Source of the DNA: Verrucomicrobiota bacterium
GTDB lineage: Bacteria; Verrucomicrobiota; Verrucomicrobiia; Verrucomicrobiales; DEV007
DNA: 64,000 nucleotides
Reading direction: 5' to 3'
NCBI GenBank assembly: GCA_020630975.1
Contig: JAHDID010000001.1
Coordinates: 17,687-81,686 of the forward strand
Position 1 is the first letter of the stretch; the number at the start of each line of letters is the position of its first letter. The position numbers were made by a program, and so were the translations under genes. Shown one piece after another: positions 29,644 to 46,924 of the stretch. A model generated the notes under the pieces. The model was not told where the DNA came from. It did no database searches and saw nothing but the letters and a program-made list of their open reading frames with translations.

Positions 29644-30567
29644 CTACAAACTCACCTTAGAATGAACACCCTTGGAGCTGGGGGCAGTGGTAAGTTTCTG
29701 GTGATTGATTAAAATCTGACGCAGCACTGCCTCTAGTGGCGCATCGGTAGTAGTGGTCAGGTAGTCGATGCCCTTGTCGTCGCAGATCGCTTGCACCGAT
29801 GCTTCGTGCTGCTGGTAGCGCTGCTGGTAGGCATCGATTTCTTTTTTCACATGCACCGACATGACTTTTCCTGACTCGAGGTCTTGTAGCTGTGAGGAGT
29901 CGTCTAGGTCGGGCTGGATGTCGGTCGGGTCGAGGACTCGGATGATGGCTACCTCATTGCCCTGGGCGCGGAGCATCGATAGGCGCGGCTCTAGCTGCTC
30001 GATAGGGGCTAAAAGATCGGAGATGAGTAGGAAAAAACCACGGCGGCGCTGCATCTGGGCAATACGTAGTAGCGGCTCATCTAGACTGGTGCCCTCGCCT
30101 TCGGCAGGAGATTGCAGCTCGTTTAGTAGTCTCTGTAGATGAGCTGGGTGATTGCGCGGCGGCAGGTAGGTGTCGAGAGTGGTGTCGAATGTCGTCAGCC
30201 CGACTTGGTCGCCCTGCTTCATCAAGAATACCGCCAAGGTAGCCGCAAGCGTAGCCGCATAGTCCGACTTGAGCGGATGGTCACCAGAGGCAAAGGACAT
30301 TGATCGGCTTTGATCTAGGATGATTTGTAGCCGCAGATTGGTTTCCGCTTCGAAGCGTTTCAGGTAGGGGCGATCGGTACGTGCCATCACTTTCCAGTCG
30401 AGGTGCTTCAAGTCGTCGCCTGGTGTGTAGTTGCGATATTCGCTAAACTCCACGGAGAAACCATGGTCGCGACTGCGGTGCAGGCCGAGCTGCAGGCCAT
30501 CGATGAGCATGCGGGTACGCAGCTCCATCGACTGTATGGCTAGTAGGCTTTTCGGGTCGATCGGCAT
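29644..30567 (-). CDS. DUF58 (BatA/B-associated vWA-like) protein
   Basis: A 307-residue soluble protein of the DUF58 family that nearly always accompanies MoxR ATPases. YRNYTPGDDLKHLDWKV (44-60) is the family signature, and a vWA-like fold follows with DQSRSM (85-90) as a MIDAS-type DxSxS. It is thought to be an adaptor for MoxR-driven remodelling of protein complexes. It is last in the 17-kb block and starts 13 bases after the WD40 gene ends, far from its MoxR (42338), while in most bacteria the two are adjacent. Confidence 0.9.
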   Translation of the reverse strand: MPIDPKSLLAIQSMELRTRMLIDGLQLGLHRSRDHGFSVEFSEYRNYTPGDDLKHLDWKVMARTDRPYLKRFEAETNLRLQIILDQSRSMSFASGDHPLKSDYAATLAATLAVFLMKQGDQVGLTTFDTTLDTYLPPRNHPAHLQRLLNELQSPAEGEGTSLDEPLLRIAQMQRRRGFFLLISDLLAPIEQLEPRLSMLRAQGNEVAIIRVLDPTDIQPDLDDSSQLQDLESGKVMSVHVKKEIDAYQQRYQQHEASVQAICDDKGIDYLTTTTDAPLEAVLRQILINHQKLTTAPSSKGVHSKVSL

Positions 30568-30580
30568 GGCGAGAATGTAT

Positions 30581-32458
30581 CTATCGTTTCGGGAGACCTT
30601 TACCGGTCAAGGTGAATGGTAGTTTGTGGACTCTGGCTCCGCCCTCTGGTTTAGGTATGTCGATGCCGAGTTCTTCGATGACTTGGGTATCTAGTGTCTG
30701 GCTTTGGATCACCTTGCGCACCACTTCAGGAGCGTGGAAGGCTTTCATCGCCGCGTCGCGGTCATAGGTCCGAGCTAGAGAGTCTACGCCATGCTCAGAG
30801 ATCCAGTCGAGATAGCGTGCGCCATTCGCTGAGCAATCGTAAAAGCCTAGCGGGGTCCAGCATACCCATTCGCCCTGTTCATCGACATATAGATTGACCA
30901 GTAGCTTACCTGCTTTCTCATGCCAGATCTGTAGGATTCCTTCTTCACCTCCGCTTGCGATTATGGGTAGCTCGTGACTGCCGAGCACAGACCAGATGGC
31001 GCACACTGGAAAATAGGCACCGAATAGCGGATCGGCCAAAGGTGTGGTGAGATCGTCAGGTTCGAGTAGTCCCAGCTCATTCCAGCCGGAGAAGACGATT
31101 TTCCCGCTTTGGGTGAATGAGTAGCTCAGCACGGTGCCTCGGTCGCGCACCTGCCCATCGTTTAGGTGGAGCTGTTTCCAGTTTCGTAGTGAAAGGAATT
31201 TATCCTCATGCCTGGTGTAGCGAGTCGTGTAGTCGGCTAAGCGACCGAAGGGCGGCGCGACCTGCATGGAGGCAAAGTCGAAGCCGCTCATCATGCCGCC
31301 ACTGTAGTCATAGTACCCTCCGAATCCCCAGGCAAACTTGAGAGGATTCTCTTGGCTTATACCCAAGGTTCGTAGCGAGTTTTTGAATTCGTGGTAGGCG
31401 ATTGTCTGGTCGGTCTTTGAGTCGATCACATAGATAGCAGCTGGCTTGCCACCGACGAGGGCGATCAGACCATTGTCAGCACAGCGCATGTCGTAAGTCT
31501 TGTCGCAGATCTCATGCATATCCTCGCCTACAGCCGATAGCCAGTCGGCTCGACAGAGAGTTGTGTCTCGAGATATATAGAGCTTTGATCCATCGGGGGT
31601 AAATGTGGCCAACGCGGCATGGCCACGCTGTAGGTGATTGGGTAGCCGCCTTATCGCTTGGCCGGTCTCTCGGTCGAATACACATAGGTAGTTGCGGTTG
31701 CTGCGGCCAAATACTTTAGAACCATCGTTAGATAAAATCGAAAATCCCTTTATCGGATATTCTCTTATCTTGCGAATTTGCCCGGTATTAGCATCGATAC
31801 TGGCGAGACAGCTATTTCGATTTTCAGGTTTGTAGAGGAAAGAGTTACCCTCTTTGGGGAACCGAATAAAGTGTACTCGAGCTTCGCTGGTGTAGGTCGA
31901 TCGCAGCTCCATCACCTGACCACGTGGCTTATCCAAGTGGATCTGCCACACGAGTATCTTGCTATCGCCAGTGCCCGCGAGCAGCCAGCGTCCATCGGCG
32001 CTGAAGGCGATGTTATTGATATGGCTATTGCCATCCTCCTGATAGTCGAGCTGGGTGTCTTTATCCAGGTCGATGATCCGCACCATCGAGTTGGTATTAC
32101 CGACAGCTCCGGCTACGGCGATGATCCGTTTGCTCGGGTGAGCTGCTAGACAAAAGTAGCGGCCATGCAGGGTGCGCCGGGCGTCGATGATGGTATTGGT
32201 GTAGATCGTCTTTTTCAGCTCTAGAGTACGAGGCTCCCAGAGGCGTATGGTTTTATCCTCGCCAGCAGTGACGAGTGTCTCGCCGCCATCAATGAAAGCG
32301 CAGCTACGCACCGGGCCTACGTGATGGCCCAGATTCAAGCGCGGCATGGGCGGAGTCGGAGGCTGTAGGTAGGTGACCGTACGCTCGGCTAGCGCGGTGC
32401 CCGCACACATCCAGGCGCAGGCCACTAGTAGATGGCGGAGTAGCGACGACTTATTCAT
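30581..32458 (-). CDS. Secreted WD40-repeat protein, C14-associated type
   Basis: A 625-residue protein with a signal peptide (HLLVACAWMCAGTALA) followed by a beta-propeller. Clear repeats include SCAFIDGGETLVTAGEDKT then IRLWE, and NIAFSADGRWLLAGTGD then SKILVW; later blades are more diverged. The C-terminal piece EWVCWTPLGFYDCSANGARY matches the segment that follows propellers in caspase/WD40 proteins. Its start overlaps the stop of the caspase-like gene by eight bases. The pair thus resembles a caspase-WD40 protein split in two. Likely a periplasmic scaffold or sensor. Confidence 0.85.
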   Translation of the reverse strand: MNKSSLLRHLLVACAWMCAGTALAERTVTYLQPPTPPMPRLNLGHHVGPVRSCAFIDGGETLVTAGEDKTIRLWEPRTLELKKTIYTNTIIDARRTLHGRYFCLAAHPSKRIIAVAGAVGNTNSMVRIIDLDKDTQLDYQEDGNSHINNIAFSADGRWLLAGTGDSKILVWQIHLDKPRGQVMELRSTYTSEARVHFIRFPKEGNSFLYKPENRNSCLASIDANTGQIRKIREYPIKGFSILSNDGSKVFGRSNRNYLCVFDRETGQAIRRLPNHLQRGHAALATFTPDGSKLYISRDTTLCRADWLSAVGEDMHEICDKTYDMRCADNGLIALVGGKPAAIYVIDSKTDQTIAYHEFKNSLRTLGISQENPLKFAWGFGGYYDYSGGMMSGFDFASMQVAPPFGRLADYTTRYTRHEDKFLSLRNWKQLHLNDGQVRDRGTVLSYSFTQSGKIVFSGWNELGLLEPDDLTTPLADPLFGAYFPVCAIWSVLGSHELPIIASGGEEGILQIWHEKAGKLLVNLYVDEQGEWVCWTPLGFYDCSANGARYLDWISEHGVDSLARTYDRDAAMKAFHAPEVVRKVIQSQTLDTQVIEELGIDIPKPEGGARVHKLPFTLTGKGLPKR

Positions 32459-33425
32459 GATCTTCCTCCTTTGGTTGGTGATAGATTTCAGCTAGCTGCA
32501 GGGCGATTTTTTCCAGCTGGGTGTAATAACTTTGATCGCCGATCTGTGAGCGTTTCTGTCGTAGTTCCTGGATTTTTTTTTCCAGTGCGACCCGAGATTC
32601 TCTTTGCTGCGAAGTTAGATTTTTCTCATCCTCCGATCGGCTCAGTAGTAGGCTGGCTGCTTTCTGGCCATCGATACTCGCTGCGGTTTTGGGCTTTTGA
32701 ATCGCATGGATACCCTTAAAGAAATCAACCGGGGTGCCCTTGCCGTCGGCATTGTCATCGAGGATCGCGTGCTCGGTGGTCATGCGGTTTTCATTTTTGT
32801 AGTGGGCCTCGACCGATCGCGATGCGTGGAGAAATGCTTCTAGTAGCGACAGGCTACCATCGCCATCGAGATCGGCTTCTTGGGCTTGTAGGGCACTGGC
32901 TAGGTACTGCCCGAAGTAACTATAATTTTCCTCGCCAGTCGTCTGAGTCGCTGTGATGATGATTCGGTTAGGGCCCGCTAGCTTGGTGAGAAATTGAGAA
33001 CTGGAGGCCGAGGAATTGATGAACACCAACGGTCGCTTCGCTAAGGGTTTTAGCCATTCATGAAATTCCTCCAGAGTCACGTCTTTGCCTCGTAGATTGA
33101 ACGAGGTAACCTTTTCGTCGAATGTGCCATGGCCATGTAGTACGATCCACAGGGTCTCTGTGCTATGGATATCGGCGTTTTCGAGGTATTCCTTTAATGC
33201 CTCGCGGTCGGGGCGAGTGGCTGGGCGATCCCGCCCGATCAGATGAAATCGGTAGCTCGGGTCGGTGGAGAAATGGCTTCTCCAAATCTGAGCGGATGAC
33301 TCGAAGGGTGCCTCGTAAGTGGCCTCGCCCGGCTCGCCTACGACTAGTAAAAAGTCATCGCCCAGCAGTGGGCATGGTAGGCAGATGCCACACAGGAGGG
33401 CTGCTATGTATAGTAAAATCTTCAT
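32451..33425 (-). CDS. Secreted caspase-fold (C13/C14-like) protein lacking catalytic Cys, with EF-hand motif
   Basis: About 324 residues from the Met at 33425, which gives a signal peptide (LLYIAALLCGICLPCPLLG); the frame also opens at 33476. Residues about 88-180 look like a caspase/legumain fold: TLWIVLHGHG has the catalytic-type His97, but the strand that should carry D-x-C reads VFINSSASSS (134-143), so Cys is replaced by Ser. The mature protein has no cysteine at all. DLDGDGSLSLLE (185-196) is an EF-hand-like calcium loop. A C-terminal coiled coil follows (about 255-320). It is probably a binding protein or non-Cys hydrolase. It lies between a vWA gene (7 bases away) and the WD40 gene (overlap). 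Confidence 0.75.
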   Translation of the reverse strand: MKILLYIAALLCGICLPCPLLGDDFLLVVGEPGEATYEAPFESSAQIWRSHFSTDPSYRFHLIGRDRPATRPDREALKEYLENADIHSTETLWIVLHGHGTFDEKVTSFNLRGKDVTLEEFHEWLKPLAKRPLVFINSSASSSQFLTKLAGPNRIIITATQTTGEENYSYFGQYLASALQAQEADLDGDGSLSLLEAFLHASRSVEAHYKNENRMTTEHAILDDNADGKGTPVDFFKGIHAIQKPKTAASIDGQKAASLLLSRSEDEKNLTSQQRESRVALEKKIQELRQKRSQIGDQSYYTQLEKIALQLAEIYHQPKEEDHE

Positions 33426-33432
33426 GCTGTGT

Positions 33433-35694
33433 TTAGGCCAAGCTATTGTTGCGACGAATAGCCCATTCGCCGACAAAGCAAAGGATCGCTGCGATCAGCA
33501 GCCAGGGCGTGTGCCAGATAGGTGTGGTTTTTATTTCCACCTCAGGGACTTCGGTCGAGGCGATCAGGTCGACCAAGTCGTCGACCTGATCTGCATCGAT
33601 GATCTGGCCACCAGTCTGCTGGGTGATCTGCTCGCTCCAGGCGCGGTTGATGCCGAGGGTGCGATACTCCTCCGCATCTCGATTGATCGCCCAGCCGGTC
33701 TCGACAGGGTGCCAGGTGAGCTGACCATCGTTCAGTGGTTTGGCTACTGCCCGCACTGTATAGCCACCATCTTGATTGGCGAGAAACACGCCTCGATAGA
33801 GACCAGGCTCGACATCGTCTGGATTGGCGGGGAAGGTATAGATCTCGCCACTGGGGTCAGTCACTGTCAGAGTGATCTGGCCATTGTACTGTGGATCGAA
33901 CTTTTCATTCTTTAGCCATACTTTGATCTGTTTCTCCTGGCTGTCGGCTTCACCTGAGTCGACTTGTATCCTGATGCGGTCGGGTACATCTACCGTCAGA
34001 TGGCGCATGAACTGCCGCCATAGTTTGTCGCGATCGTTAGCTTGATTGGGCTCTAGAAATCCCCAGCGCCACATGTCGCCGATCATGCAGGCAGCGACCT
34101 TACCCGCGCCAAACCTTTGTACGGCGATGGCGGGTATAGTGGCACCGGTCTCTGCATTCTGCACTGTCGCATAGAGAGAGGCGCCGGGTTTGGTGGCGCG
34201 CACTTGGCTGACACTGGTGAAGCTGGCCATATTTCGCAAGCGAGCCTTTTCCTGTGCCTCTAGCTGGCGGAGCCGTAGCCAAAACTCTAGCATGCCCTCG
34301 CGTGTCAGCCCCATGCGTAGCTGGTGATCGGCAGCTACCGGTGCTGAGCCTGCGCCTAGGTAGACCGGTAGCAGATCGGTGAATAGCGAGTCATCATACC
34401 CACCATCGGCAAACGACTCGGAACCGCCGAGAAACAATACGGATCCACCCCGCTTAGCGACGAATGTCTCGAGTAGTTCTTGTTGGTCGGGAGTAAAGAA
34501 ATCCGCCTCTAGATCATCGATCACGACAGCCTTGTATGGGTAGAGGCCCTCCGCATAGGTGGGAAAGCCATTCGCCAGCTCATCATCCTGCACGACTAGC
34601 CGCACCAGTACAGGCTCGTCGTAGCCCTCTGTCTCGTCTTCGCGATCGAAGCCGCGGAACAGTGGGTTGCTTTCCTCACCCGAGCGACCGCGCCATTGAA
34701 ACTTTGGCTCCCGTTTGGCGATACGCTGCAGGGCCGAAAGCTTGAATGATTGATCTTGGTGCAAGGCGCGACGAAAAAATTTGAAGTCCCAATTGGGTCG
34801 CCCAGATAGGTAGAGGATACGGTGTGGTCCCGTGTTTTGCTCGACCGCGATGATTCGCTCGTTATTCGCCAGTGTGGCTTCTGTCTCGGGAGCGTCGGTA
34901 GCCACCTCGATACGGTAAAAGCTGACACCCAGCTGTGTCGGGCGAAAGGTAAAGCGAACCTTCTTTGATGACTCGCCCTCGAAACGCACCAATTGAGAGG
35001 CAACTGGCTCGGTGGCTTCGCCCTGCCGATACAGGCTGGCCGTTGCCTGCGGGTAACCACGAGATGTTAAGTGAACCTCGACCGTGATCGGAGAATCCTC
35101 GAATGCGCTTTCGGTAATTAAGACAGTACCAATCGCCAAATCTTTGCTAGGCATACCTCCACCGGGATGCACCACAAACACTGGGGGCAGCGAGGCGCTC
35201 GATAGGTCGATAGCGGCATCGGTGTGGTTGCCATCGGTGAGTATGACGACCGCAGACAGTGGCTGGCCATCGTAGCGATTGGCCAGATCGGATAGCCCAG
35301 AGTTGAGCCGCGATGCTGGGCCTGCCTGATCGAGCTCACCAAACGAGGCCAGAGGAGTTAGTTTGGAATCAAGTGCGAAGCGACGCACTTGGAACTGAGA
35401 CTCTATATGATCGACGAATGTGCTCGTGGAGGGGTTATCCGAATGGAGTAATTCTCGCAATTGCTCGGCACGACTATTTTCACTCGGACTCTCTTTTACG
35501 GAAAGGCTGCGACTATTATCGGCGACGATGGCGACGATGTTTTTGCCGGCCTTAGGTATCGATTGGATCCAGGTGAGTTCGAGTAGGCAAAGTGCTAGTA
35601 GAGCCAGACCTAGAAGTTTTAGACCAATAGCAGCGATACGCTTGCCTAGCGGTAATGACTTAGTTTTTACATAGGTATAGCATAGCAGCGCCAA
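33433..35694 (-). CDS. Membrane vWA/GATase-like protein
   Basis: At least 753 residues. Two hydrophobic segments open the protein (one cut by the chosen start, the other KLLGLALLALCLLELTWI), then a vWA-like domain with VADNSRSLS (MIDAS D59-S61-S63) and VVILTDGNHTD, Ig-like parts, and a class I glutamine-amidotransferase-like domain without the catalytic Cys (YKAVVIDDLEADFFT, then FVAKRGGSVLFLGG). A last transmembrane helix (TPWLLIAAILCFVGEWAI) is near the C-terminus. The first available start is TTG at 35694; the frame is open back to 35784 and encodes more of the first helix (TWLPYIVVAWCLC), so an unusual start such as ATC at 35776-35778 is possible. Confidence 0.8.
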   Translation of the reverse strand: MALLCYTYVKTKSLPLGKRIAAIGLKLLGLALLALCLLELTWIQSIPKAGKNIVAIVADNSRSLSVKESPSENSRAEQLRELLHSDNPSTSTFVDHIESQFQVRRFALDSKLTPLASFGELDQAGPASRLNSGLSDLANRYDGQPLSAVVILTDGNHTDAAIDLSSASLPPVFVVHPGGGMPSKDLAIGTVLITESAFEDSPITVEVHLTSRGYPQATASLYRQGEATEPVASQLVRFEGESSKKVRFTFRPTQLGVSFYRIEVATDAPETEATLANNERIIAVEQNTGPHRILYLSGRPNWDFKFFRRALHQDQSFKLSALQRIAKREPKFQWRGRSGEESNPLFRGFDREDETEGYDEPVLVRLVVQDDELANGFPTYAEGLYPYKAVVIDDLEADFFTPDQQELLETFVAKRGGSVLFLGGSESFADGGYDDSLFTDLLPVYLGAGSAPVAADHQLRMGLTREGMLEFWLRLRQLEAQEKARLRNMASFTSVSQVRATKPGASLYATVQNAETGATIPAIAVQRFGAGKVAACMIGDMWRWGFLEPNQANDRDKLWRQFMRHLTVDVPDRIRIQVDSGEADSQEKQIKVWLKNEKFDPQYNGQITLTVTDPSGEIYTFPANPDDVEPGLYRGVFLANQDGGYTVRAVAKPLNDGQLTWHPVETGWAINRDAEEYRTLGINRAWSEQITQQTGGQIIDADQVDDLVDLIASTEVPEVEIKTTPIWHTPWLLIAAILCFVGEWAIRRNNSLA

Positions 35695-35793: not shown

Positions 35794-38700
35794 TTAGTTC
35801 GCCTGGGTGGAACCCAGTTTTTGGTAGTATTTTTCGACCAAGTCTTTGTAGGCCGTAGGGGCGGGATCTCGGTCGATCCTGACTTGCTGGTCGGCGTCGT
35901 CCTCCTGGCGGGCGATCTCTTCTTTTACATTCGTGCGTAGTCGGCGCAGAGGCTGCACCAGTCCTGTCTCTACGACCGACCACTCTGGCGGTCGACTGTG
36001 GCGTTTGAAATCGCTGCGATACTCTCGTGAGCGCAGACGGATGCGTGTCGCTTCTCGCTTTAGATCGGCATCGCCTAGCATGATCTCGACCTCCTTAAGC
36101 ATCTCAGCCCAGCGATTGTATTCTTCGCCGGTGATGGGGCGGTCGTCGCCATGGTCGATGGGCGTGTCCTCATCGAAAGCATCTAGGAAGGAGGCTTTTC
36201 TGCGACCGGTAGGTAGAGAAAGCTGCCGATTGGTGCCTGAGCTGTGCTGGCGGCTGCCTCCGGTAATGGTGGCGTCGGACTTTTCGGTTGTTGGTTGGTT
36301 GTCGTGCTGGTCATCTTGTTGGTTGTTGGTGAATTCCCCTTGGGCGCTGGTCGAGAGGGCCGACGAGGACGTCGGCGTTCCCGGGGAGCCTTTGGCTTTG
36401 GCCTTTCCCTCACCTTCGGCTTCGCCCTCACTTTCACCTTCACCTTTGTTTTTGCTATCGGATGAGGAGTTCGCTGCTTGAGATCCTTTCTGACCCTGCC
36501 CTTGGCCTTTGGCTCCTTTACCGCCTTTCCCCTGTCCTTTGCCCTCACCTTTGGTGCCGCCTTTTCCAGCTGCTAGCGTTCCTTCTTTTCCCTTTTCTTG
36601 GCCTTTGGCTCCTTTACTACCTTTCCCCTGTCCTTTGCCGTCACCTTTAGAGGCGGTCTTTTCGGCTAGTTCTCCGCCTTTACCTTTACCCTTGCCTTTC
36701 TCTTCACCCCTGCCTTTAGATCCAGGGTTCTGTTCGCCTTCTTTACCTTCAGCCTCGCCTTTGCCCTGAGCGTTTTCTTGGTTTGTTTCCGTGCCTTTGG
36801 ATTGGCCTTCACCTGCCTGCGCTAGTTCTTGCTCACCAGATAGGTCTTCGATCTTGCTGCTACTGCCTGGTTGGTTTGGTTTACCAGTTTGGGCACTGCG
36901 GTTTTCTTTATTTAGCTCTTCGATAAGTTGGGCTAGTTGACGGTCGGCGCGTTTCAGTGCTTCGGCCTCACTACCGATCACCGAGTCGGCTGCGGTATCG
37001 ATTTCCTTCTGTAGTTGATCGATGTTCTCAGCGGCCTTGGCTTCGGTCTCGCTGGCTTTAGCGTAGGCACCTCGGCGGACTTCTTTGGCGGCTTCGTCGA
37101 GCGACTCGGTCGTTCCCTGAGTTTCGACATTGCGGATAGCCTGATACAGTTGCCTCGATAGCAATGGCTCTTGCTCCTCTGAAGCACGAGTGATGTCGCG
37201 CATCTTTTCGAGTACATCGGTTAATTCCTTTTGCTGCTGGCGGATCGCTTTTTCGTGTTGATCCCGTTGGCTTTTCGAGGCGGCTGCCTTGCTACCTTTT
37301 TGAGCTTGGTTAGCTAGAGATTCGGTGAGTTTATTCTGTTCTTCGGCTAGCTTATTGGCGGCCTCGCGTAGCTCCTGCATGTGGGCTGCGAATTGACTAG
37401 CATTGGCTTTGCGCATTTCCTCAGTTGATTCACGCATTTGTTCTTCGGCTCGTTTGGAAGCGGTTGTCGCTTTGGCCAGATTTTTCTCAGACATGGCCTT
37501 GGAGGTCTCAGTTGCCTGCTTGCGCGCTTTCTCTAGTGCAGCCATGGTTTCGGCGAGTTGCTCCGATTTGCCCATGCGGTCCATTTTCTCGAGCATCTTG
37601 TCGATCTCGGTCAGCATCTCGCGCTGCTCCTCGCGTAGGCGTTTGAGTTTGTGCTCGATCTCCTCCTTTTCTTCCGGAGTGGTGGCTGCTTCCAGTGATG
37701 CGAGCAGCTGTTGCAATTGATCGGTGATCGCTTCTTGGCGTTTCGCCAGGTCCAGCATCCGCTTGAAGTGCATAGCTAACTCTTCGTCCATCGGTTTGAG
37801 CTCTGGACCTGCGGGGCGTTGCATCTCGTAGCGGCGATCTTTCTGGGAGAACTTCAGGTTCATCGCCTGCTTCTTTTGGCGCTTGGCTTCAGGCACTCCC
37901 TCGCCGGCTTTGACCATACGTATCTCGCGACCTAGGGCATTCATCAGCCGCTCGTAGGCGGTCTGCTCGTGATCCATAGAGGGGTCTAGCTGGTCTCGCT
38001 CGCCTGCGGCGACTTTCTCCAGAGTGGCCTGAGCTTCGACCATCGCCTGGCGGGCATCTTGGTAGATCGATTTCAGCACTTCGTCTTTTATCAGTAGTAA
38101 TTTTTCATCAATCAGCTCAATGATGTACTGCTGCATTGCGGCTAGGCTAGTACCATCTTGCTTTAGTGCCTCTATCTCTGGGGAAGTGCGCTCGACTTTC
38201 CAGGTGGCATTGATCAATTCTTTCTGTAGGTCGAGACACTTTTGAGCATTGGGCTGACCATCGGCTTTCACCTTGGCTGGGCCTTCGCGAAAGATTTCTT
38301 CGAAATGGCGCACCTCGATGAAATACATCTCACTTTCGGTTCGCCGGTTGCTAGCATCGGGGCCCTGATCCTCGGCCCAGAAGTGGTAGGTCAGCAGAGT
38401 ATTGGGCCTTGCGCCGAGCGTCTCAAAGTCGAGTGGCCATTTAAGGTCGTGCTTGCGTAGTGCCTGCTCTTCCTCTGGCTTGGGTAGCTCGAAATGAACC
38501 TCCTCGACCTTGCCATCGAATCGATAGGTCACCCCGGCGGTCTTCAGGCCCAAGTCATCGATAATAGTTGCCTCTGGTGTGATCTCTTGGATCGGTGTGA
38601 CCCGAGTATCGAGACTAGGAAATTTTAGCTTCACCACTGCGGGCCGATTCTCTTTTACTAGTATGCTCAGGTACGGCGGATTGCGATTCTCTCGTCCTTC

Positions 38701-39795
38701 GGCATCTGATAGGATTAATTCGTAGCGCTCTGATTTCGGTGGCTGGGTTTTGATAGCTATCCGGTTGGGTTTGGCGGGATCGATTATCAGCGGGATCTCC
38801 GTGCCATCTTTTGCGATTAACTTACCAGCGGTGATCGGTTTGTTACATTCCAGAGTCCACTCGACCGCATCGCCCTCGAAGACGCGGGCCAGATAGGTAT
38901 CTTCGGTTAGCTGCGGCTTGCGATCGGAGCCGCTGGGAGGAATGACCTTGGCATCGGAGCGAACCAGTTTGGGAAGTTCGAAGGTGGTTATCTGGTATTC
39001 GCTACTCTTGTGACCTTTGGCGGTCTCGATGCGATAGGTGCCATCGCCAGGTACTGACTCGATCGTCACGCCAAACTCTGGATCTTCGAGCTTCTTCTTC
39101 ATCGGCAGGCGCCGCAGAAATTTCCCGTCTAAACAATCGACGACAAGAGTCGCATGGTCTGGGATCGACTCGGGGAAAAGCGCTGTAACCACTAGGCGGG
39201 ACTCTCGCTCCACTTCCACATCGCCTGGATTGACGATGATCTGCATATCTACAGTCAACGCTTCGGCGGGCGGCTCCTCTTCATTAGCCACTGTGATAGT
39301 GGAACCCGGACGGTATTTGATACATACACCCAGCGAGACGATAAACAGCGCCAATGCGAGTAGTGCCATACGCTGTAACTTTTGTAGATAACCAGCCGAG
39401 TGATTCGCTGCGACTTTTTTATCGATCGCAGCTCTCACCGCGTCTTGAATGACCTGCCGACTCAGGTAGTCAGGAGTCGCCTCTTTCTCCGCCTGGTGGG
39501 CTGTCGCGAGTAGGTATTTCAGCTTTGGGTTTTGCTCGCCGATATCAGCGAGTACTTGTCTCTCGCTAGGTATACCTCTACCAGCTAGGCACGCAGCGAT
39601 CACGACTAAAGCTGCAGCAATAAGCAGGGCGGTGGTCCAGGTCACCTGAAAAGCAAATACCAAACAGGCAAGAAGCACTGCGCTGATCAACAGAGCCGTA
39701 GCGATCCACTGCAGTCGCTTGATACGCCGTATCTTGGCTAGCACTTGGCTTACCAGTCGACTCATGGTGGGGAGTGGCGGTGGTTGCTTGCTCAT
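35794..39795 (-). CDS. Giant membrane coiled-coil protein with Gly/Lys-rich low-complexity region (DUF4175-like)
   Basis: A 1333-residue protein. Three hydrophobic helices lie within the first 165 residues (WIATALLISAVLLACLVFAF, TALLIAAALVVIAACLA, LALALFIVSLGVCI). Beta-sandwich-like domains follow to about 490. A long coiled coil of short heptads (about 500-960) leads to a Gln/Gly/Lys/Glu-rich segment (about 985-1150) with repeated GKGQGKG and GGKGAKG units, then a helical C-terminus with RRKASFLDAFDE. The layout recalls DUF4175-type proteins beside vWA/MoxR genes. It could be the scaffold of the complex. It is followed by the vWA/GATase gene. Confidence 0.8.
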   Translation of the reverse strand: MSKQPPPLPTMSRLVSQVLAKIRRIKRLQWIATALLISAVLLACLVFAFQVTWTTALLIAAALVVIAACLAGRGIPSERQVLADIGEQNPKLKYLLATAHQAEKEATPDYLSRQVIQDAVRAAIDKKVAANHSAGYLQKLQRMALLALALFIVSLGVCIKYRPGSTITVANEEEPPAEALTVDMQIIVNPGDVEVERESRLVVTALFPESIPDHATLVVDCLDGKFLRRLPMKKKLEDPEFGVTIESVPGDGTYRIETAKGHKSSEYQITTFELPKLVRSDAKVIPPSGSDRKPQLTEDTYLARVFEGDAVEWTLECNKPITAGKLIAKDGTEIPLIIDPAKPNRIAIKTQPPKSERYELILSDAEGRENRNPPYLSILVKENRPAVVKLKFPSLDTRVTPIQEITPEATIIDDLGLKTAGVTYRFDGKVEEVHFELPKPEEEQALRKHDLKWPLDFETLGARPNTLLTYHFWAEDQGPDASNRRTESEMYFIEVRHFEEIFREGPAKVKADGQPNAQKCLDLQKELINATWKVERTSPEIEALKQDGTSLAAMQQYIIELIDEKLLLIKDEVLKSIYQDARQAMVEAQATLEKVAAGERDQLDPSMDHEQTAYERLMNALGREIRMVKAGEGVPEAKRQKKQAMNLKFSQKDRRYEMQRPAGPELKPMDEELAMHFKRMLDLAKRQEAITDQLQQLLASLEAATTPEEKEEIEHKLKRLREEQREMLTEIDKMLEKMDRMGKSEQLAETMAALEKARKQATETSKAMSEKNLAKATTASKRAEEQMRESTEEMRKANASQFAAHMQELREAANKLAEEQNKLTESLANQAQKGSKAAASKSQRDQHEKAIRQQQKELTDVLEKMRDITRASEEQEPLLSRQLYQAIRNVETQGTTESLDEAAKEVRRGAYAKASETEAKAAENIDQLQKEIDTAADSVIGSEAEALKRADRQLAQLIEELNKENRSAQTGKPNQPGSSSKIEDLSGEQELAQAGEGQSKGTETNQENAQGKGEAEGKEGEQNPGSKGRGEEKGKGKGKGGELAEKTASKGDGKGQGKGSKGAKGQEKGKEGTLAAGKGGTKGEGKGQGKGGKGAKGQGQGQKGSQAANSSSDSKNKGEGESEGEAEGEGKAKAKGSPGTPTSSSALSTSAQGEFTNNQQDDQHDNQPTTEKSDATITGGSRQHSSGTNRQLSLPTGRRKASFLDAFDEDTPIDHGDDRPITGEEYNRWAEMLKEVEIMLGDADLKREATRIRLRSREYRSDFKRHSRPPEWSVVETGLVQPLRRLRTNVKEEIARQEDDADQQVRIDRDPAPTAYKDLVEKYYQKLGSTQAN
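36501..36661 (-). repeat. In-frame 96-bp-period repeat in Gly/Lys-rich region
   Basis: Two copies of about 60 bases beginning CTTGGCCTTTGGCTCCTTTA on the plus strand start at 36501 and 36597. The 96-base offset keeps the frame and encodes KGxGKGQGKGxKGAKGQ twice. Such low-complexity DNA can expand or shrink by slippage or recombination, so strain-to-strain length differences are likely. Confidence 0.7.
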
Positions 39796-39799
39796 ATCG

Positions 39800-39850
39800 G
39801 TAGTATCAGGTGGCTTCGGGTGTGGCTGTGGCGGAGGATGAGCTGCGGCG
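39800..39850. repeat. 51-bp direct repeat, copy 1
   Basis: GTAGTATCAGGTGGCTTCGG... runs to 39850 and matches 40285-40335 with a single change (G/A at position 13). It encodes the same 14-residue C-terminal tail (RRSSSSATATPEAT minus the first residue where frames begin) in the small gene that the second copy encodes in the vWA gene. Confidence 0.9.
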
Positions 39851-40264
39851 GATTAGACCTACTGGTAATTTGGAACCAAATGTACAAACTAGGATCGCAA
39901 ATATGGTGATCACGAAATACGGTAGAGAGCATACAAACGTTCCGAACTCATACCTAGCTCCAAGATCACCACGAATCGTGTCTGATAACGTTGGTTTAAA
40001 CGGCTCAAGACTGGAAGTGTTTGAGGAGAAAATTTGACTCACAGACTCTCTGGGTGAGTAGCCAGAGGGCATCATAATGGGATACTTGTTATTATTTAAA
40101 CCGAATTTGTTATCGATTTTGTGTTTTGTAACCATCACCTGGATACTGCCTGATGATGAGTTGATAATCATAAAGTTTGGAAATGACAGACTCGCAGTGA
40201 AATAATGGGACAGAACCCAAATACTTAATGTAAGTAACAGCGGGAGGTACAGAATAATCTTCAT
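39806..40264 (-). CDS. Small two-helix membrane protein in a repeat-bounded insert
   Basis: A 152-residue protein from the Met at 40264 (MKIILYLPLLL), the start that gives a normal signal or membrane segment; the frame extends upstream to 40402 but overlaps the vWA gene. A second transmembrane helix (CSLPYFVITIFAILVCTFG) lies near residues 112-130, so most of the protein would face the periplasm. The last residues, RRSSSSATATPEAT, are identical to the C-terminus of the vWA protein upstream, because both are encoded by copies of a 51-bp repeat. Codons are clearly AT-richer than those of the cluster. No family is recognised. It interrupts an otherwise conserved-looking gene order. Confidence 0.6.
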   Translation of the reverse strand: MKIILYLPLLLTLSIWVLSHYFTASLSFPNFMIINSSSGSIQVMVTKHKIDNKFGLNNNKYPIMMPSGYSPRESVSQIFSSNTSSLEPFKPTLSDTIRGDLGARYEFGTFVCSLPYFVITIFAILVCTFGSKLPVGLIRRSSSSATATPEAT

Positions 40265-40284
40265 AGCATATTTTAATCCTAACA

Positions 40285-40335
40285 GTAGTATCAGGTAGCT
40301 TCGGGTGTGGCTGTGGCGGAGGATGAGCTGCGGCG
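40285..40335. repeat. 51-bp direct repeat, copy 2
   Basis: Second copy of the 51-bp repeat, covering the stop codon and last 14 codons of the BatA-like gene. Together with 39800-39850 it bounds a 434-bp segment holding most of the small membrane-protein gene. Confidence 0.9.
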
Positions 40336-42312
40336 ACGGGAGCCGATTAGGGTTTCGACCAGGATGAAAATAAATACCAAACAGGCGAGCCATCGAAACC
40401 ACTTTTGTTGATTCTCTAGCTCCACCTCGGTGAGTGTCCTACCGGGAGGTGCTAGCTGGGAATCGTCTGGATCGGGTGCCTGGACTGAGTCGATACCAAA
40501 GCGTGAAAATGTATCGAGATCCATCGGCTCTAAGAGACTCTCGCGAGGATCGAGATTGACGATGTAGGTCACTTGCTTGTCACCCTGAGCGAATGGATAG
40601 AAACCGGGGCGATCTGCTTGATACGGCTGCTGAGCGCGCTGCCCGTCGATGGTGATAGGCAGGTCGGAAGGGAAATCGCGATCCAGCGGCAAGATATCGC
40701 CTACCGTAAAGCTCGCCGACGCGCCGGGGCGAATACCGCTGTGATGAAGTAGGGAATAGAGGAAGGGAACAAACTTAGTAGATAGAGCTAGCTGACTATC
40801 TTGTTTGCTCCAGCTGGTGGTGATGCCATAGAGAGTGCCCTGACCGATCGTTTTTTCAAAAAGAGCCGGGCTACCGTCTTCGTAACTGATGAGTGTGCGG
40901 GTGTCGGGCAGGTCGACTAGTTGATAATTCCAGACACGAATATTACTAAAATCTCGGGTCTCGATGGCGGCAAATGGTCGCAAGACAGGGTGTTTGAAAT
41001 CGACCTGCTCGAAAAGCGTGTAGTCCCGACCTGTGGTGGCGGCGCGAACCTCGATCGATGAATCGGCTAGTAGAGTTCTAAGCGCAGTGCTGGCCTCTGG
41101 GCGATCGATGACGAGTAGACAGGTCTTTCCAGCCTGTAGCTCTTTGAGCAGGTGCTGGCTGTCACTATCGGTCAGCGAGCCGTCGGCGATGTAGAAGTCG
41201 ACATTCTCTGTGGCTCGACTTTCTAGGCGAGGCTCCATGCGATGGGTATTGATCATCGCTTGGTCGAGGTAGAACGCTAGGCTATCGGCATTCTCCACCA
41301 ATGAATCCGTCCACAGCGAGAGCAAAGGCTGCGCTGGCTCTGGTGGGGGGAAATACACCGTATTGTCGAACTCTATACCATCGCCAAATAGCTCTAGAGG
41401 AGAGCCAGGTGGAAAACCAGCCGGGGCCGATACGACAACACTCTGCCCAGGGGCGATGTAGTGCGTCTCGTATAGGTCTGCAGCAGTCCAGTTGAGCTTA
41501 AAGGAGCCAGAGCTGTGTTTGGGGTGATTGGTGATGCGGACTCTAGGCTGAGAGGGATCGGCGCTAGCGACTGTATTGAGCGAAGCATTCTGAGTGAAAT
41601 CGGAATCGACCCGCAGTACCGATAGCTCGATCTCCTCTGGCCACACCATGGAGGTGAGTCGCTCCCACTCGCTGCCTTGCTGTAGATCGGTGATGAGGAT
41701 GACCTCGGATCTCTCTACCGGGCCTTCGTCGAGAGTGGCCTGCTCCTGCATGGCCTCGATGGCGCGTAGCAGCGCTAGATCGATACGGCTACTACCCCAG
41801 CCTGGAGATAGTGAATTGATCTTTTGGCTGAGTAGAGATTTGCGCTGACCGCTATCCACATCCTGCCACGAGGTGTAGGAAATGAGCTCGCTGACCTGGT
41901 GATCGAAATGGTAGACTGCTACCTGATCTCGAGCTTTGATCTTTTTGATCTGGCTGAGCGCTAGGTCTTTAGCACTCTGCCAGGTGCCCTCGCGTCGCAT
42001 CGAGGCGCTAGTATCGATGACGATACTGTAGCGCGATACGGTCTGGTTGGTCAGGCTGAGCAGCGACTCATTATTTAAAAACGGCCGGGCAAAAACCAAG
42101 ACTAGAAACAGGATGGCTAAGATGCGTAGCAGTAGTAGCAGCCAGTCCTCCAGCTTAGCCATGCGCCGATTGCTAAGTGTTTCACTAGCATTCCAGAATA
42201 GCAGTGAGCTGACCGGGGTCGACTCGCGCGGCGGCTTGCGCTTGAGGTGTAGGTACAGTGGCAGGGCGATTGCCAGTGCTCCTAGTAGGTAGATGGGGTA
42301 GAGTAGAGACAT
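40291..42312 (-). CDS. BatA-like membrane vWA protein
   Basis: A 673-residue protein with the BatA-type N-terminus: two helices (LLGALAIALPLYLHL and WLLLLLRILAILFLVLVFA) flanking a conserved RRMAKLEDW loop. A vWA domain follows with a complete MIDAS, IDTSASM (Asp100, Ser102, Ser104) and ILITDLQQGSEWE. The middle contains a GATase-like part (NVDFYIADGSLTDSDSQ) and the end has a third helix (WLACLVFIFILVETLIGS) and a Ser/Thr tail. vWA proteins of this kind are partners of MoxR ATPases, whose gene ends 26 bases upstream. Confidence 0.88.
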   Translation of the reverse strand: MSLLYPIYLLGALAIALPLYLHLKRKPPRESTPVSSLLFWNASETLSNRRMAKLEDWLLLLLRILAILFLVLVFARPFLNNESLLSLTNQTVSRYSIVIDTSASMRREGTWQSAKDLALSQIKKIKARDQVAVYHFDHQVSELISYTSWQDVDSGQRKSLLSQKINSLSPGWGSSRIDLALLRAIEAMQEQATLDEGPVERSEVILITDLQQGSEWERLTSMVWPEEIELSVLRVDSDFTQNASLNTVASADPSQPRVRITNHPKHSSGSFKLNWTAADLYETHYIAPGQSVVVSAPAGFPPGSPLELFGDGIEFDNTVYFPPPEPAQPLLSLWTDSLVENADSLAFYLDQAMINTHRMEPRLESRATENVDFYIADGSLTDSDSQHLLKELQAGKTCLLVIDRPEASTALRTLLADSSIEVRAATTGRDYTLFEQVDFKHPVLRPFAAIETRDFSNIRVWNYQLVDLPDTRTLISYEDGSPALFEKTIGQGTLYGITTSWSKQDSQLALSTKFVPFLYSLLHHSGIRPGASASFTVGDILPLDRDFPSDLPITIDGQRAQQPYQADRPGFYPFAQGDKQVTYIVNLDPRESLLEPMDLDTFSRFGIDSVQAPDPDDSQLAPPGRTLTEVELENQQKWFRWLACLVFIFILVETLIGSRRRSSSSATATPEAT

Positions 42313-42337: not shown

Positions 42338-43318
42338 TCAGACCGTGTCGATCAGTTCGGTGATGATGGAGCTGACATTTCGGCCCTCGGCCTCAGCCTT
42401 GTAGTTTGGCAGGATACGGTGGCGCAGCACTGAGTGGGCCAGTGCTAGCAGGTCTTCTTTGTCCACATAGTTGCGCCCCTCGAGTAGGGCGCGAGTCTTG
42501 GCACCGAGCACTAAGTTCTGCGCACCGCGAAGTCCGGCGCCCCACTGGACGAGTTCGTCGACGAAGGAAGGCGTGCCTTCCTGACCGGGGCGCGAGGCAC
42601 TGACTAGGTCGACAGCGAATTCCACTAGCTCTTTGGCGATAGGCACCAGCTTTACGATCTGCTGGCACAGCTGCAGCTGCTCTGCGGTATAGAGAGTCTG
42701 GAGCTGGGGGGCTGCCTGGCTGGTGGTTTGCTCGACTACTCTGACTTCGTCGGCCTTGGGTAGGTAGTCGACTACGATATTTACCATGAATCGATCTAGC
42801 TGTGCCTCTGGTAGAGCGTAGGTGCCCTCCATCTCGATTGGGTTTTGAGTAGCGAGCACGAAGAATGGCTCTGGCAACTTGTGCGTCATGCCCGCAGCGG
42901 TTACCTGATGCTCCTGCATGGCCTCGAGCAGAGCGGCTTGAGTCTTTGGCGGTGTGCGGTTGATCTCGTCTGCCAGGATCAAGTTGGCAAAGATGGGACC
43001 TTTTTGAAATTCCAGTCGTCGGCCCTCTGCAGTGTCTTGGAGCACCTCGGTGCCGACGATGTCTGAGGGCATCAGGTCGGGGGTGAACTGGATGCGGCTA
43101 AACTGTAGGGTAAACAAATCGGCTAGAGAATTGACCAAAAGTGTCTTGGCCAATCCAGGCGCACCAGTGAGTAGCGCGTGGCCGCCAGACATGAGTACCA
43201 CGAGAATCTGATCGATCACCTCCTCCTGGCCGATGATCACTTTGCCTAGTTCGGCCTTTATCGTGGCACGGCTATTTTGGATGAGAGCTACGGCTTCGGC
43301 CTGTTGTTGGTCGGTCAT
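42338..43318 (-). CDS. MoxR-family AAA+ ATPase
   Basis: A 326-residue AAA+ protein. Walker A GAPGLAKT (52-59), Walker B LILADEINR (113-121), sensor 1 VLATQNPIEMEGTYALPEAQLDRF and the MoxR-typical LEAMQEHQVT are complete. MoxR ATPases act with vWA proteins as chaperones that insert cofactors or remodel complexes. Here one ATPase is linked to one DUF58 and two membrane vWA proteins. It starts 28 bases after the DUF4159 gene ends. Confidence 0.95.
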   Translation of the reverse strand: MTDQQQAEAVALIQNSRATIKAELGKVIIGQEEVIDQILVVLMSGGHALLTGAPGLAKTLLVNSLADLFTLQFSRIQFTPDLMPSDIVGTEVLQDTAEGRRLEFQKGPIFANLILADEINRTPPKTQAALLEAMQEHQVTAAGMTHKLPEPFFVLATQNPIEMEGTYALPEAQLDRFMVNIVVDYLPKADEVRVVEQTTSQAAPQLQTLYTAEQLQLCQQIVKLVPIAKELVEFAVDLVSASRPGQEGTPSFVDELVQWGAGLRGAQNLVLGAKTRALLEGRNYVDKEDLLALAHSVLRHRILPNYKAEAEGRNVSSIITELIDTV

Positions 43319-43345: not shown

Positions 43346-44164
43346 TCAATGGCTCATCGCGTAGACCACGATGTTGATACCCATAGGAAAGGAAAGTTTC
43401 TCAGCGAATTCTTTGAAGTACCAGGGATCTACGCCCTCGCGCTCCCAGCCATCGCCTATATCGGTATTGTGCATCATCAGGCAGCACATGCGCCCATCGT
43501 CGTCGAAGTAGGCACGGTAGTAGGGTGTCCCGGTGCCGGGGCCCACCTGCTGCTCGTGGGTGATACCGTCTTTCTTGCCTGCGAGCGCTACACCTATGCT
43601 GGGGACCTGGGGCAGCTCCTCGATATCGAATACCGTGTGAAAGATGGGGTGGCTGACATCTAGCTCGGTGAATTGGCGGTCGGGAAAGACCTGCTCCATG
43701 ACCGAGCGAGTGTGGTGCCACTGCTCATCGCCCCAGGTATCATCCATCAGTAGGAATCCGCCATTTAGGCAGTAGTAGCGTAGATTCTCGATCTCTTGAT
43801 CGGAGAGGGCCATGAACCCGGTTTCGACCATGTAGAGAAATGGGTATTTTTTGAGAACCTCGCGATCGACTAGTGTGGTCGACTCGGGATCTGGATTGAC
43901 CTGTAGAGATGTCAATTGCTGCAGACGGTAGGAGAAGTTTTTATCGGCATCGGGAAAGTCTGTGCTCCAGCGTACCCATTGGTGATCGTTAGGTGATTGG
44001 AATTTGACTCGACAAAAGGTAAACACATCGCCGGGCATGTGAGCTGGCTTGTCCCAAATGGGATAGCCATCGGGCCCTGGTCGAAAATCGACATCGCCAC
44101 CATTGATCAGTAGCGGCCAGACGATGCCGAGGAGTATCGAAAAACGTAGTGTGGTGGATTTCAT
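43346..44164 (-). CDS. Secreted DUF4159 protein
   Basis: About 272 residues from the Met at 44164 (MKSTTLRFSILLGIVWPLLING, a signal peptide); this ATG overlaps the stop of the upstream TPR gene in ATGA form. The DUF4159 core shows FTFCRVKFQS, MVETGFMALSDQEIENLR, NGGFLLMDDTWGD, and a C-terminal RMCCLMMHNTDIGDGWE with two adjacent Cys. The fold is GATase-like and the function unknown; these proteins are typical of MoxR/vWA loci in PVC bacteria. Confidence 0.85.
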   Translation of the reverse strand: MKSTTLRFSILLGIVWPLLINGGDVDFRPGPDGYPIWDKPAHMPGDVFTFCRVKFQSPNDHQWVRWSTDFPDADKNFSYRLQQLTSLQVNPDPESTTLVDREVLKKYPFLYMVETGFMALSDQEIENLRYYCLNGGFLLMDDTWGDEQWHHTRSVMEQVFPDRQFTELDVSHPIFHTVFDIEELPQVPSIGVALAGKKDGITHEQQVGPGTGTPYYRAYFDDDGRMCCLMMHNTDIGDGWEREGVDPWYFKEFAEKLSFPMGINIVVYAMSH

Positions 44165-46731
44165 CGGTGTTGGAGGCCGCAAGAGCACTTGCCGTGTAGC
44201 TGCAGTAGGAGGTGGTGCGCTTTCTTGTATCGAGGAGCTTCAGAGATCGCATCGAGTATGTGGCGTTTGGCGGCCTCTGGTTGGGTTTGGGATTTCAGGG
44301 TACCTAGACGGTAGTGTGTATCGGCGGGGTTGATCAGATCGGTGAGGAGTAGCTTCTCATAGGCAGAGATGGCGGCGTCGCTTTGAGCTAACCCCTCATA
44401 GGCACGGCCCATGCCGCGGTGCGCTAAATGGGTCAGTGGCTGTACGCCAAATAGAGATTGGCCGCTGGCTAGTAGCTCTGGCCACCTTTCCTCTCGAGTA
44501 TTTAGCTCGACCAGTCGCTCGTAGGCATAGACGGCAGAGCCGGAGTGAGGCAGCCAGGCCTCTAGTAGCTCGCGCTCTTTAGCTGGCTGGTTTTTGAAAC
44601 GAGCGACTAGTGATAGGTAGTAGCGAGCGCAGTCGTCGGAGCCATCGGTGGGATACAGAGCGAGTAGGTGGCTAGCAGTTTGCTGTAGGGCATCCCAGGA
44701 TTTATTGCGGCCATGTACTAGGCATTGTTGTTTCAGGGCCCAGTAGTTGTTGGGATTTTGCTCGAGGTAGGCCGCTAGGGCACCGGCGTCGCGTTTTAGT
44801 AGGGCGGGGTTGCTCGGCATCTGCCAGTCTAGATCGGGGGCTAGGCTATCGGCTTCGGTTTTGGCGATCTGAGCGAAGTCGGCCTCGAAGTCGGCGATCG
44901 GCTCCATATGCAGGGCGAAGGAATCCTCTACCAGTTTGCCTTTGGCGATATCCTTTAGCACTAGACGTAGTTTTTCGTAGCCATGCTTTTCGACGATACG
45001 GTCGACCATGCGCCCAGATTGAAAGTAGGCGAGCATCATATCATCGCTGCGAAACTTTTCATTAAGCTGGCTGATGGGGATTAATTTGCCTTGGGCAAAG
45101 ATCGGATGAGTTCTCTGGTCGAGAGGGCGTCGGTGCCGCTTGTCGAAAAGGGCCTCCTCGTGTACCGAGCAGCCCTCGGTGAGCCAGCGGGGTATGCGCT
45201 GCTCGGTAGCAGCGAGAGTCACGGTGTGGGCGTACTCGTGCCAGAGTACGTGCTCCCAGTTTTGGCCTAGCATACCCACGCCGCCTGCACTTTGCATAGA
45301 GATCACATCGCCAAAGCAGGCACCCAGCACACCCAGACCACCGGGGATACCAGAGAGACGGATATTGATGTCTTGGGTATTGGTAAAGAATTCGATCAGA
45401 GTCAGCTCGCTGGGGGTATGATCGTAGCGCTGGGTCATCTCGGTGCGCGCGCGATCGAGTAGCTCCATCACTCGGTCGCCGTAAAGATCGTGATCTTTCT
45501 TTGGCAAACGCACTCGAAAGTGAGGGGTCTCGATAGTGGTCATCGCATCGATATAGGCTTTCAGCTCGGCATGATTGAAGGCGATGACGTTGTAGGGATC
45601 GGTCTGCTGCACTTCCTCGATCAGCGCCCAGCCACGCTTTTCATCGCCGCGGCGCAGGTAGGCTAGACCGAGCTGAGCTTTGGCCTCGATCAGGTCGGGA
45701 TCTATCTCGGTGGCTCGGATCAGATAGGGGATGGCTTCTTTCAGCAATAAGCGGCGCGAAAGCAGGTAGCCGATCCAGTAGTCGACATAGGGCGACTGCG
45801 GCCAGACTTGGAGTGCCTTGTCGCGAGTGTCATGCACTTGCTGCATGCGCTTGCGGCGGTGGTGCTGGGCTGTCTCCAGGGCCAGTGCCCGCTGATTCCA
45901 GGGATCGATGGCATAGACTTTTTCGAGAGCTGCTACAAAGTCGTCCTCTGTGCCGGTGGCATACTCGCGTAGGGCATTGAGCAGCAGAGTCGGGGTGTGA
46001 TTGGGGTTGATGGCTAGCGCTTTGAGAGCCTCTTCGGCAGCGCCGCGCATTTCATTGCTCTCATACAGAGTGAAGGCCAGCCAGAAGTGCAGATCGGCGT
46101 GGGGGCCATGCTTTTTCAGTCCATCGCGTAGGAATTCGGCCGCATATTTGTAGTCTTGATTGCTGTGCGATAGCTCGGCGGCGGCCAGATAGCCAGCCAG
46201 CAGCTTTGGGTCTTTCTTGAGAGCGGGTTTGTAAAATTGATTGAGGATACGCACCGGATCGGCTCTAGATTCGACAGCTATTTTACCCAAGGCGACCAAT
46301 TCGCCTGGGCTGAAGCTTCCCTTGTTTTGTTTGCGCTCGGTAGCACGGTTATTGATGCGTGTGAGCAGGTCTGCCGCCTCGTCGGGAAAGCCGGACTCGC
46401 GTAAAATGGCACGGCATCGGCCTAGGATCTCCAGATCATCTTCGGCGAACTGCGACAAGATGAGTCGCACGAGTTGCACCGCATCCTCGTAGGCCCCAGT
46501 CTGATAGAACAGCTCGGCGACCAAGAGCAGTGCCTGAGCGGCGTCCTGCTCGTAGAACCCATCGCGCTGTAGTAGTAGACGCGCACGATCCGCATCGCCA
46601 GTGCGATGGAGCTGCTGGGCGCGCTCTAGAGTCAGAGGCGCAGCTGCGCACAAACCTGCGAAGAACAGGCTCAAAATAATTACTCCCAAAGGCCCCGAAC
46701 GCCTATACCCAAACATACTAATTGGCGCCAT
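44161..46731 (-). CDS. Secreted TPR protein with gluzincin (peptidase MA-like) domain
   Basis: About 856 residues from the Met at 46731 (46764 and 46716 are also possible; all give a hydrophobic signal near VIILSLFFAGLCA). N- and C-terminal thirds are TPR-like helical repeats. The middle holds a zinc-metallopeptidase site: HEYAH (about residues 498-502, numbering from 46731) followed after about 16 residues by RWLTEGCSVHEE, as in peptidase MA gluzincins. It is first in the 17-kb block and the only gene there with an intact protease site. The promoter is probably in 46732-46924, shared with the CXXCH gene. Confidence 0.82.
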   Translation of the reverse strand: MAPISMFGYRRSGPLGVIILSLFFAGLCAAAPLTLERAQQLHRTGDADRARLLLQRDGFYEQDAAQALLLVAELFYQTGAYEDAVQLVRLILSQFAEDDLEILGRCRAILRESGFPDEAADLLTRINNRATERKQNKGSFSPGELVALGKIAVESRADPVRILNQFYKPALKKDPKLLAGYLAAAELSHSNQDYKYAAEFLRDGLKKHGPHADLHFWLAFTLYESNEMRGAAEEALKALAINPNHTPTLLLNALREYATGTEDDFVAALEKVYAIDPWNQRALALETAQHHRRKRMQQVHDTRDKALQVWPQSPYVDYWIGYLLSRRLLLKEAIPYLIRATEIDPDLIEAKAQLGLAYLRRGDEKRGWALIEEVQQTDPYNVIAFNHAELKAYIDAMTTIETPHFRVRLPKKDHDLYGDRVMELLDRARTEMTQRYDHTPSELTLIEFFTNTQDINIRLSGIPGGLGVLGACFGDVISMQSAGGVGMLGQNWEHVLWHEYAHTVTLAATEQRIPRWLTEGCSVHEEALFDKRHRRPLDQRTHPIFAQGKLIPISQLNEKFRSDDMMLAYFQSGRMVDRIVEKHGYEKLRLVLKDIAKGKLVEDSFALHMEPIADFEADFAQIAKTEADSLAPDLDWQMPSNPALLKRDAGALAAYLEQNPNNYWALKQQCLVHGRNKSWDALQQTASHLLALYPTDGSDDCARYYLSLVARFKNQPAKERELLEAWLPHSGSAVYAYERLVELNTREERWPELLASGQSLFGVQPLTHLAHRGMGRAYEGLAQSDAAISAYEKLLLTDLINPADTHYRLGTLKSQTQPEAAKRHILDAISEAPRYKKAHHLLLQLHGKCSCGLQHR

Positions 46732-46924
46732 ACTGGCAAGACGGGGACGACGAGACAAGAACAAAGCTTGGTCGAAATCGATCTTTTTATTTAATAATTT
46801 TCATAATGGCTCCTAACTTTGGATAGTCCCAGCTGAACAAAGGTGACCACTGATTCCAGCCTTTACGAAATTAAATAGTTTTGCCAAGATTCTAGGGGCT
46901 AAAAACTGTCCCCCTAATATCGCC

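Follow-up and report, generated by a model that had tools for sequence, protein, structure and literature searches.

A predicted legumain-like protein lacking the catalytic Cys, encoded in MoxR–DUF58–BatA/vWA operons of Verrucomicrobiota and Planctomycetota

Introduction

Loss of the catalytic nucleophile in clan CD is already known from two settings. In the pseudo-orthocaspases (C14B), the His–Cys dyad of the C14 p20 domain is replaced by Tyr–Ser (PMC6426788), and inactive caspase effectors occur in fused form in the MoxR–vWA-centred ternary systems, which are conflict systems (Kaur et al., 2020; PMC7159879). The text of the latter paper makes no mention of DUF58, BatA or C13. A core of MoxR, DUF58 and BatA/vWA genes characterizes the Bat (Bacteroides aerotolerance) operons, and peptidase family C13 contains legumain, also called asparaginyl endopeptidase, and the GPI8 subunit of GPI transamidase.

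Here we describe a protein encoded in a 64,000-nt stretch of DNA from a Verrucomicrobiota bacterium (the window, meaning the whole stretch that was analysed). A preliminary description of this DNA had singled it out as a caspase-fold protein in which the catalytic Cys had become Ser. What appeared there as a single oddity is a family of two phyla found in a fixed operon.

Results

A probably exported protein encoded within an operon

The gene lies on the minus strand and runs from an ATG at 33425 to a stop at 32451 (32451..33425), encoding a protein of 324 residues. It starts 7 nt past the stop of the upstream vWA/GATase1-like gene (33433) and its 3′ end shares 8 nt with the start of a WD40 gene, which places it inside an operon. 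This is a real, conserved gene: the open reading frame is more than a chance one because a 38%-identical paralogue is present in the same genome and relatives are found in 62 of 96 related genomes. Homologues were also found in 30 of 387 genomes drawn from the phylum, some of them distant ones that match over a shorter length. A species collection gave at least 569 stretches with a homologue, the best 80 of which all belong to Verrucomicrobiota and Planctomycetota. When collections of viral contigs and genome contigs were searched, a single-protein query gave no match, whereas an alignment query did.

Residues 1–22 (33360..33425, minus strand) form a probable Sec signal peptide, as judged from the sequence and from a hydrophobic helix at residues 2–13 of the structural model; the cleavage site is a predicted one. 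Export by this signal peptide is likely. Cys residues are found only at positions 12, 15 and 18, all within the signal peptide, so that the mature chain has none, as the preliminary description had stated. By inspection, there is no lipobox at any of these three residues.

The predicted fold is of clan CD and closest to legumain

We built an AlphaFold2 model from an alignment of 31 sequences (pLDDT 89.9, pTM 0.87). Foldseek matched the model to caspases, metacaspases, legumains and a subunit of GPI transamidase. After DALI-like re-alignment, legumain (4nol) was the top match, with a Z score of 17.7 and an rmsd of 2.8 Å over 196 residues at 11% identity, followed by metacaspase 4 (Z 15.9), the GPI transamidase subunit (Z 14.8) and caspases (Z 13–14). 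The predicted structure has the caspase/legumain α/β fold. According to the model, then, the protein is of the clan CD fold and nearest to legumain/C13, not to caspases specifically. The caspase fold named in the preliminary description therefore holds in the wider sense of the clan but not in the narrow one, and structure prediction, proposed there as a check, returned no fold foreign to caspases.

Sequence alone gives a weak link to this family. The protein falls below the curated cut-off of the Pfam Peptidase_C13 model (PF01650; 12.6 against 22.8 bits), which has no match in the window genome at E 0.01 and is matched at E up to 0.1 by 17 of the 31 family members. NCBIfam and PADLOC models gave no match to the protein, and neither Pfam nor NCBIfam holds a model for the family described here. 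Profile–profile comparison linked the family to genuine Cys-bearing C13/C14 proteins of the same phylum with a probability of 98–99%. Legumain itself was not found by PDB sequence searches with single-protein or profile queries and emerged from fold comparison alone. Near the C-terminus the chain forms a helical hairpin (residues 272–316; 32478..32612, minus strand), in which Y300, Y301, E305 and Y315 are invariant in the 31-row alignment.

The active-site His is retained and Ala occupies the Cys position

Residue usage was counted in 130 distinct full-length relatives from Verrucomicrobiota and Planctomycetota. His99 (33129..33131, minus strand) is His in all of them and aligns with the His of the H-G motif in genuine C13/C14 proteins; it precedes Gly100, as the catalytic His of active C13 peptidases precedes a Gly. 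The LHGHG strand on which the preliminary description had relied is present, but the His97 chosen there is not the catalytic equivalent, since 129 of the 130 relatives, all but the window protein, have Ile, Val, Leu or Phe at residue 97.

The former nucleophile loop reads N137-S-S-A140-S-S142-S143 (32997..33017, minus strand) and includes the N-S-S that had been pointed out. In two profile–profile alignments, Ala140 falls in the Cys column of genuine C13/C14 proteins, the register being ambiguous between 139 and 140 when one of them was run with second settings. In an AlphaFold2 model of a genuine C13 protein from a related genome (L189, VADAC126QGG), for which the pLDDT was only 74, Cys126 lies three residues past the end of the strand and four before the helix. 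The window model has its strand at 133–137 and its helix from 144, and these offsets, applied from either side, give 140. Taken together, the profile alignments and the loop geometry assign the Cys position to Ala140, not Ser139, and a reading of the loop as D-x-C at 137–139 was dropped on the same grounds. Thus the catalytic Cys is indeed lost, but the proposed Ser139 misses its place by one residue. Crystallographers exchange this Cys for Ala when they want to kill such enzymes, for example in the C139A structure of metacaspase 4.

The counts in relatives also bear on this loop. Residue 140, which stands where active C13 peptidases have their catalytic Cys after the next strand, is Ser in 115, Ala in 13, Gly in one and Glu in one, and residue 139 is Ala in 74, Thr in 24, Ser in 18, Gly in 11 and Phe in three. 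Neither position is ever Cys, so that the alignment of orthologues suggested in the preliminary description produced no Cys139 in 130 sequences. Cys is present at 138 in 40 relatives, mostly Planctomycetota, where it is clustered rather than conserved, and at 141 in four. On a tree from which the motif columns had been left out, the non-Ser state at 140 takes 13 changes, at least seven of them forced by well-supported branches. Further conserved sites are Gly98, Asp115, Ser142 (128/130), Glu165 (Glu or Gln in all), Glu218, Asp224 and Asp227. In one relative (L080, 8902–10911) the loop is HTGECGGPF, which puts Glu in the Cys position and a Cys immediately after it.

Two putative calcium-type loops

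The first EF-hand-type loop, DLDGDGSLSLLE (residues 185–196; 32838..32873, minus strand), follows the 12-residue pattern D-x-D-x-D-G-x-hydrophobic-x-x-x-E and is near-invariant, with D185 and E196 present in all 130 relatives, D187 in 124 (Asn in six) and D189 in 128 (Asn in two). A second loop, DDNADGKGTPVD (residues 223–234; 32724..32759, minus strand), repeats this spacing, with D/E, N, D and G, then D/E at position 12; residue 223 is D/E, N225 is kept in 124 relatives and D227 in all, and 234 is D/E in 121. Short strands at 192–193 and 231–232 of the model lie in the two loops. The Pfam EF-hand model scored on the protein below cut-off only.

Judging by their residues, the two loops may bind Ca2+. 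The first is found at the same place in Cys-bearing C13/C14 proteins (L182, DLNDDGLITASE; L189, DGNRDGFVTLGE), indicating that it was inherited with the fold. Its presence alone therefore does not point to a new calcium response, and it is more likely an old structural element. The preliminary description was right about an EF-hand-like loop, which lies at 185–196, but the calcium responsiveness that it attached to the loop is weakened by this sharing. L182, which combines the loop with FDCCYSG, is the only canonical caspase-like (C14) protein found in the window genome.

The gene belongs to a Bat-type operon

MoxR, DUF58 and BatA/vWA genes stand together at the window locus, as in Bat operons. 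In order of transcription, all on the minus strand, the operon comprises genes for a TPR/Peptidase_MA_2 protein (44161..46764), a DUF4159 protein (43346..44188), a MoxR AAA+ ATPase (42338..43318; AAA_3, E 2e-63) and a protein with a BatA N-terminal region and a vWA domain (40291..42312; PF07584 and VWA, both above cut-off). After a small insert come a large TM/coiled-coil protein, DUF4175-like by our reading (35794..39795; no Pfam match above cut-off), and, directly upstream of the C13-like gene, a membrane vWA/GATase1-like protein (33433..35694; GATase1_like at 20.4 bits, below cut-off, the vWA domain being our own reading). The C13-like gene is followed by a WD40 β-propeller gene (30581..32458), which had no match in other loci, and by DUF58 (29644..30567; E 1e-46). 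Elsewhere in Verrucomicrobiota and Planctomycetota the usual order is MoxR–DUF58–BatA/vWA–DUF4175–vWA/GATase–C13-like, with DUF58 between MoxR and BatA and the C13-like gene usually last.

The association with the vWA/GATase1-like gene is close. That gene stands immediately upstream of the C13-like gene in 94 of the 97 loci with enough upstream sequence. By hand count over 96 relatives, a strong vWA/GATase match (E below 1e-50) is found in 59 of the 60 genomes with a full-length C13-like protein and in 2 of the 36 others; in the one exception among the 60 (G001), the C13-like gene lies 112 nt from the contig start. An apparent fusion of the C13-like protein to the upstream gene in three loci (L080, L146 and L135) was ruled out, since the additional stretch is a read-through of the open frame and has no vWA/GATase match. 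By eye, the GATase1-like part of 33433–35694 reads FLGGSESFADGGY at the site of the nucleophile Cys of class I amidotransferases, so that the operon may encode, in this neighbour, another Cys-less pseudo-enzyme.

The segment between the BatA/vWA and DUF4175-like genes (39792–40335) is flanked by 59-nt direct repeats that are 93% identical and 485 nt apart from start to start. It contains a small membrane-type open reading frame that ends with the tail RRSSSSATATPEAT, as the BatA protein does, and has no second copy in the genome. One other locus (L089, genome G441) has the C13-like gene together with TPR/Peptidase_MA, DUF4159 and MoxR genes, a combination reminiscent of the window operon with its unusual set of genes.

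Two copies in one genome, and distant relatives

The window genome has two copies, the window protein and the paralogue on contig C81, which likewise has Ala at 140. On the tree, the C81 copy falls among the single copies found in its family and the window copy forms a long branch of uncertain place. Because it is an extra, long-branch paralogue, the window copy may have another role than the vertical copy. Distant relatives stand in front of MoxR–DUF58–BatA (L091–L095), and in four cases (L092, L093, L095 and L098) they are the N-terminal parts of open frames of 800–900 residues, followed in the first three by MoxR–DUF58–BatA and in L098 by a DUF4159-type gene.

Discussion

We think it fairly probable that the protein is a pseudo-legumain (C13, clan CD), that is, a periplasmic pseudo-protease that binds through a remodelled groove and is the partner of the vWA/GATase1-like protein in a MoxR-driven envelope complex. 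The chain would be exported by its Sec signal peptide and would fold, as modelled, into a legumain-like catalytic domain with two putative Ca2+-type loops and a C-terminal helical hairpin. Because the Cys position is taken by Ala in this protein, and by Ser or Ala in almost every relative, cutting by a Cys–His mechanism would be impossible, and the sequence suggests that protease activity is absent. The groove, remodelled around the invariant His99, would together with the hairpin bind a protein or peptide. Since the operon is conserved, we infer both partner and process from it: the pseudo-legumain would be dedicated to the membrane-anchored protein encoded just upstream, in a MoxR–DUF58–BatA/vWA envelope complex powered by MoxR. 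The pseudo-protease offered as one of two options in the preliminary description thus finds support in the clan CD fold, the loss of the catalytic Cys and the retention of His99.

As a counterpoint, an enzyme activity that is residual or altered would be compatible, too, with the invariance of His99 and the near-invariance of Ser142. A hydrolase or transferase with Ser as nucleophile in place of Cys and His99 as base could draw on Ser140 in 115 and Ser142 in 128 of the 130 relatives, but Ala140 is found in the window protein and also in its paralogue from the same genome, and the counterpart of Ser142 in real proteases is the Ser of C-x-S-G, which is not their nucleophile. As a nucleophile would not be lost as often as Ser140 has been (at least seven times on the tree built without motif columns), such a Ser-dependent enzyme, offered as an option in the preliminary description, is highly unlikely and was not borne out. 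It is also very unlikely that the Cys138 members (N/D-C-A-S-A-S) are still Cys proteases and that the window copy decayed from them only recently: although 40 of 130 relatives, mostly Planctomycetota, have this Cys and the window copy lies near such sequences on the tree (its branch being long and the placement of low reliability), Cys138 stands two residues ahead of the catalytic place by profile alignment and loop geometry, is absent from the other 90 and takes about ten label changes on the tree, at least three of them forced. Relatives with Cys138 or Cys141 might react through the shifted Cys, which would concern part of the family only.

Metacaspases are known to need Ca2+, and paired EF-type loops that alter the groove on Ca2+ binding could in principle be the main function here. 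The near-invariant ligands and the 12-residue spacing of both loops are in keeping with such a switch, but the first loop, shared at the same place with the Cys-bearing L182 and L189, may be structural, and we consider the switch unlikely as the main function. Quite unlikely, too, is that this clan CD family, having retained the His and dropped the Cys, carries out other chemistry, such as one based on Ser/Thr or assisted by a metal, or else that it is a subunit without enzyme activity that grips substrates for a MoxR-driven envelope chaperone conserved in both phyla. A role in anti-phage defence was raised since inactive caspases occur in MoxR–vWA conflict systems; it was set aside in view of the lack of a PADLOC model and the fixed Bat-type operon, which is not conclusive.

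If the pseudo-legumain reading is right, the family is well suited to the question of what a protease site does once it is dead, being a lineage in which the nucleophile is lost, the rest of the site is strongly constrained and the membrane vWA partner is nearly constant. It would also add a testable periplasmic component to the MoxR/Bat envelope systems of Verrucomicrobia and Planctomycetes, which are poorly understood.

Comparison with known systems

We found no description of the C13-like family or its operon in the open literature, where absence is no proof; to judge from the sources searched, a C13-type, His-retaining, operon-bound family of two phyla is new. With peptidase family C13 the protein shares the fold, the H-G motif, a region of A-T-x(4)-E-x-x-Y type and the helix past the nucleophile loop, but it lacks the catalytic Cys, is about 10–12% identical, has no Pfam match above cut-off and carries the extra C-terminal hairpin. 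Pseudo-orthocaspases resemble it as prokaryotic clan CD domains without the catalytic Cys; unlike them, the present family shows no Tyr–Ser exchange, always retains its His (with Ala at the Cys position here), has a fold nearer to C13, and is exported, as predicted, and operon-bound. The MoxR–vWA ternary systems likewise combine inactive caspase-superfamily domains with MoxR and vWA proteins, also in Planctomycetes, whereas here we find a separate, probably exported protein of a Bat-type operon and not a fused effector. Finally, Bat operons share the core of MoxR, DUF58 and BatA/vWA genes, to which operons of the window type add the DUF4175-like, vWA/GATase1-like and C13-like genes.
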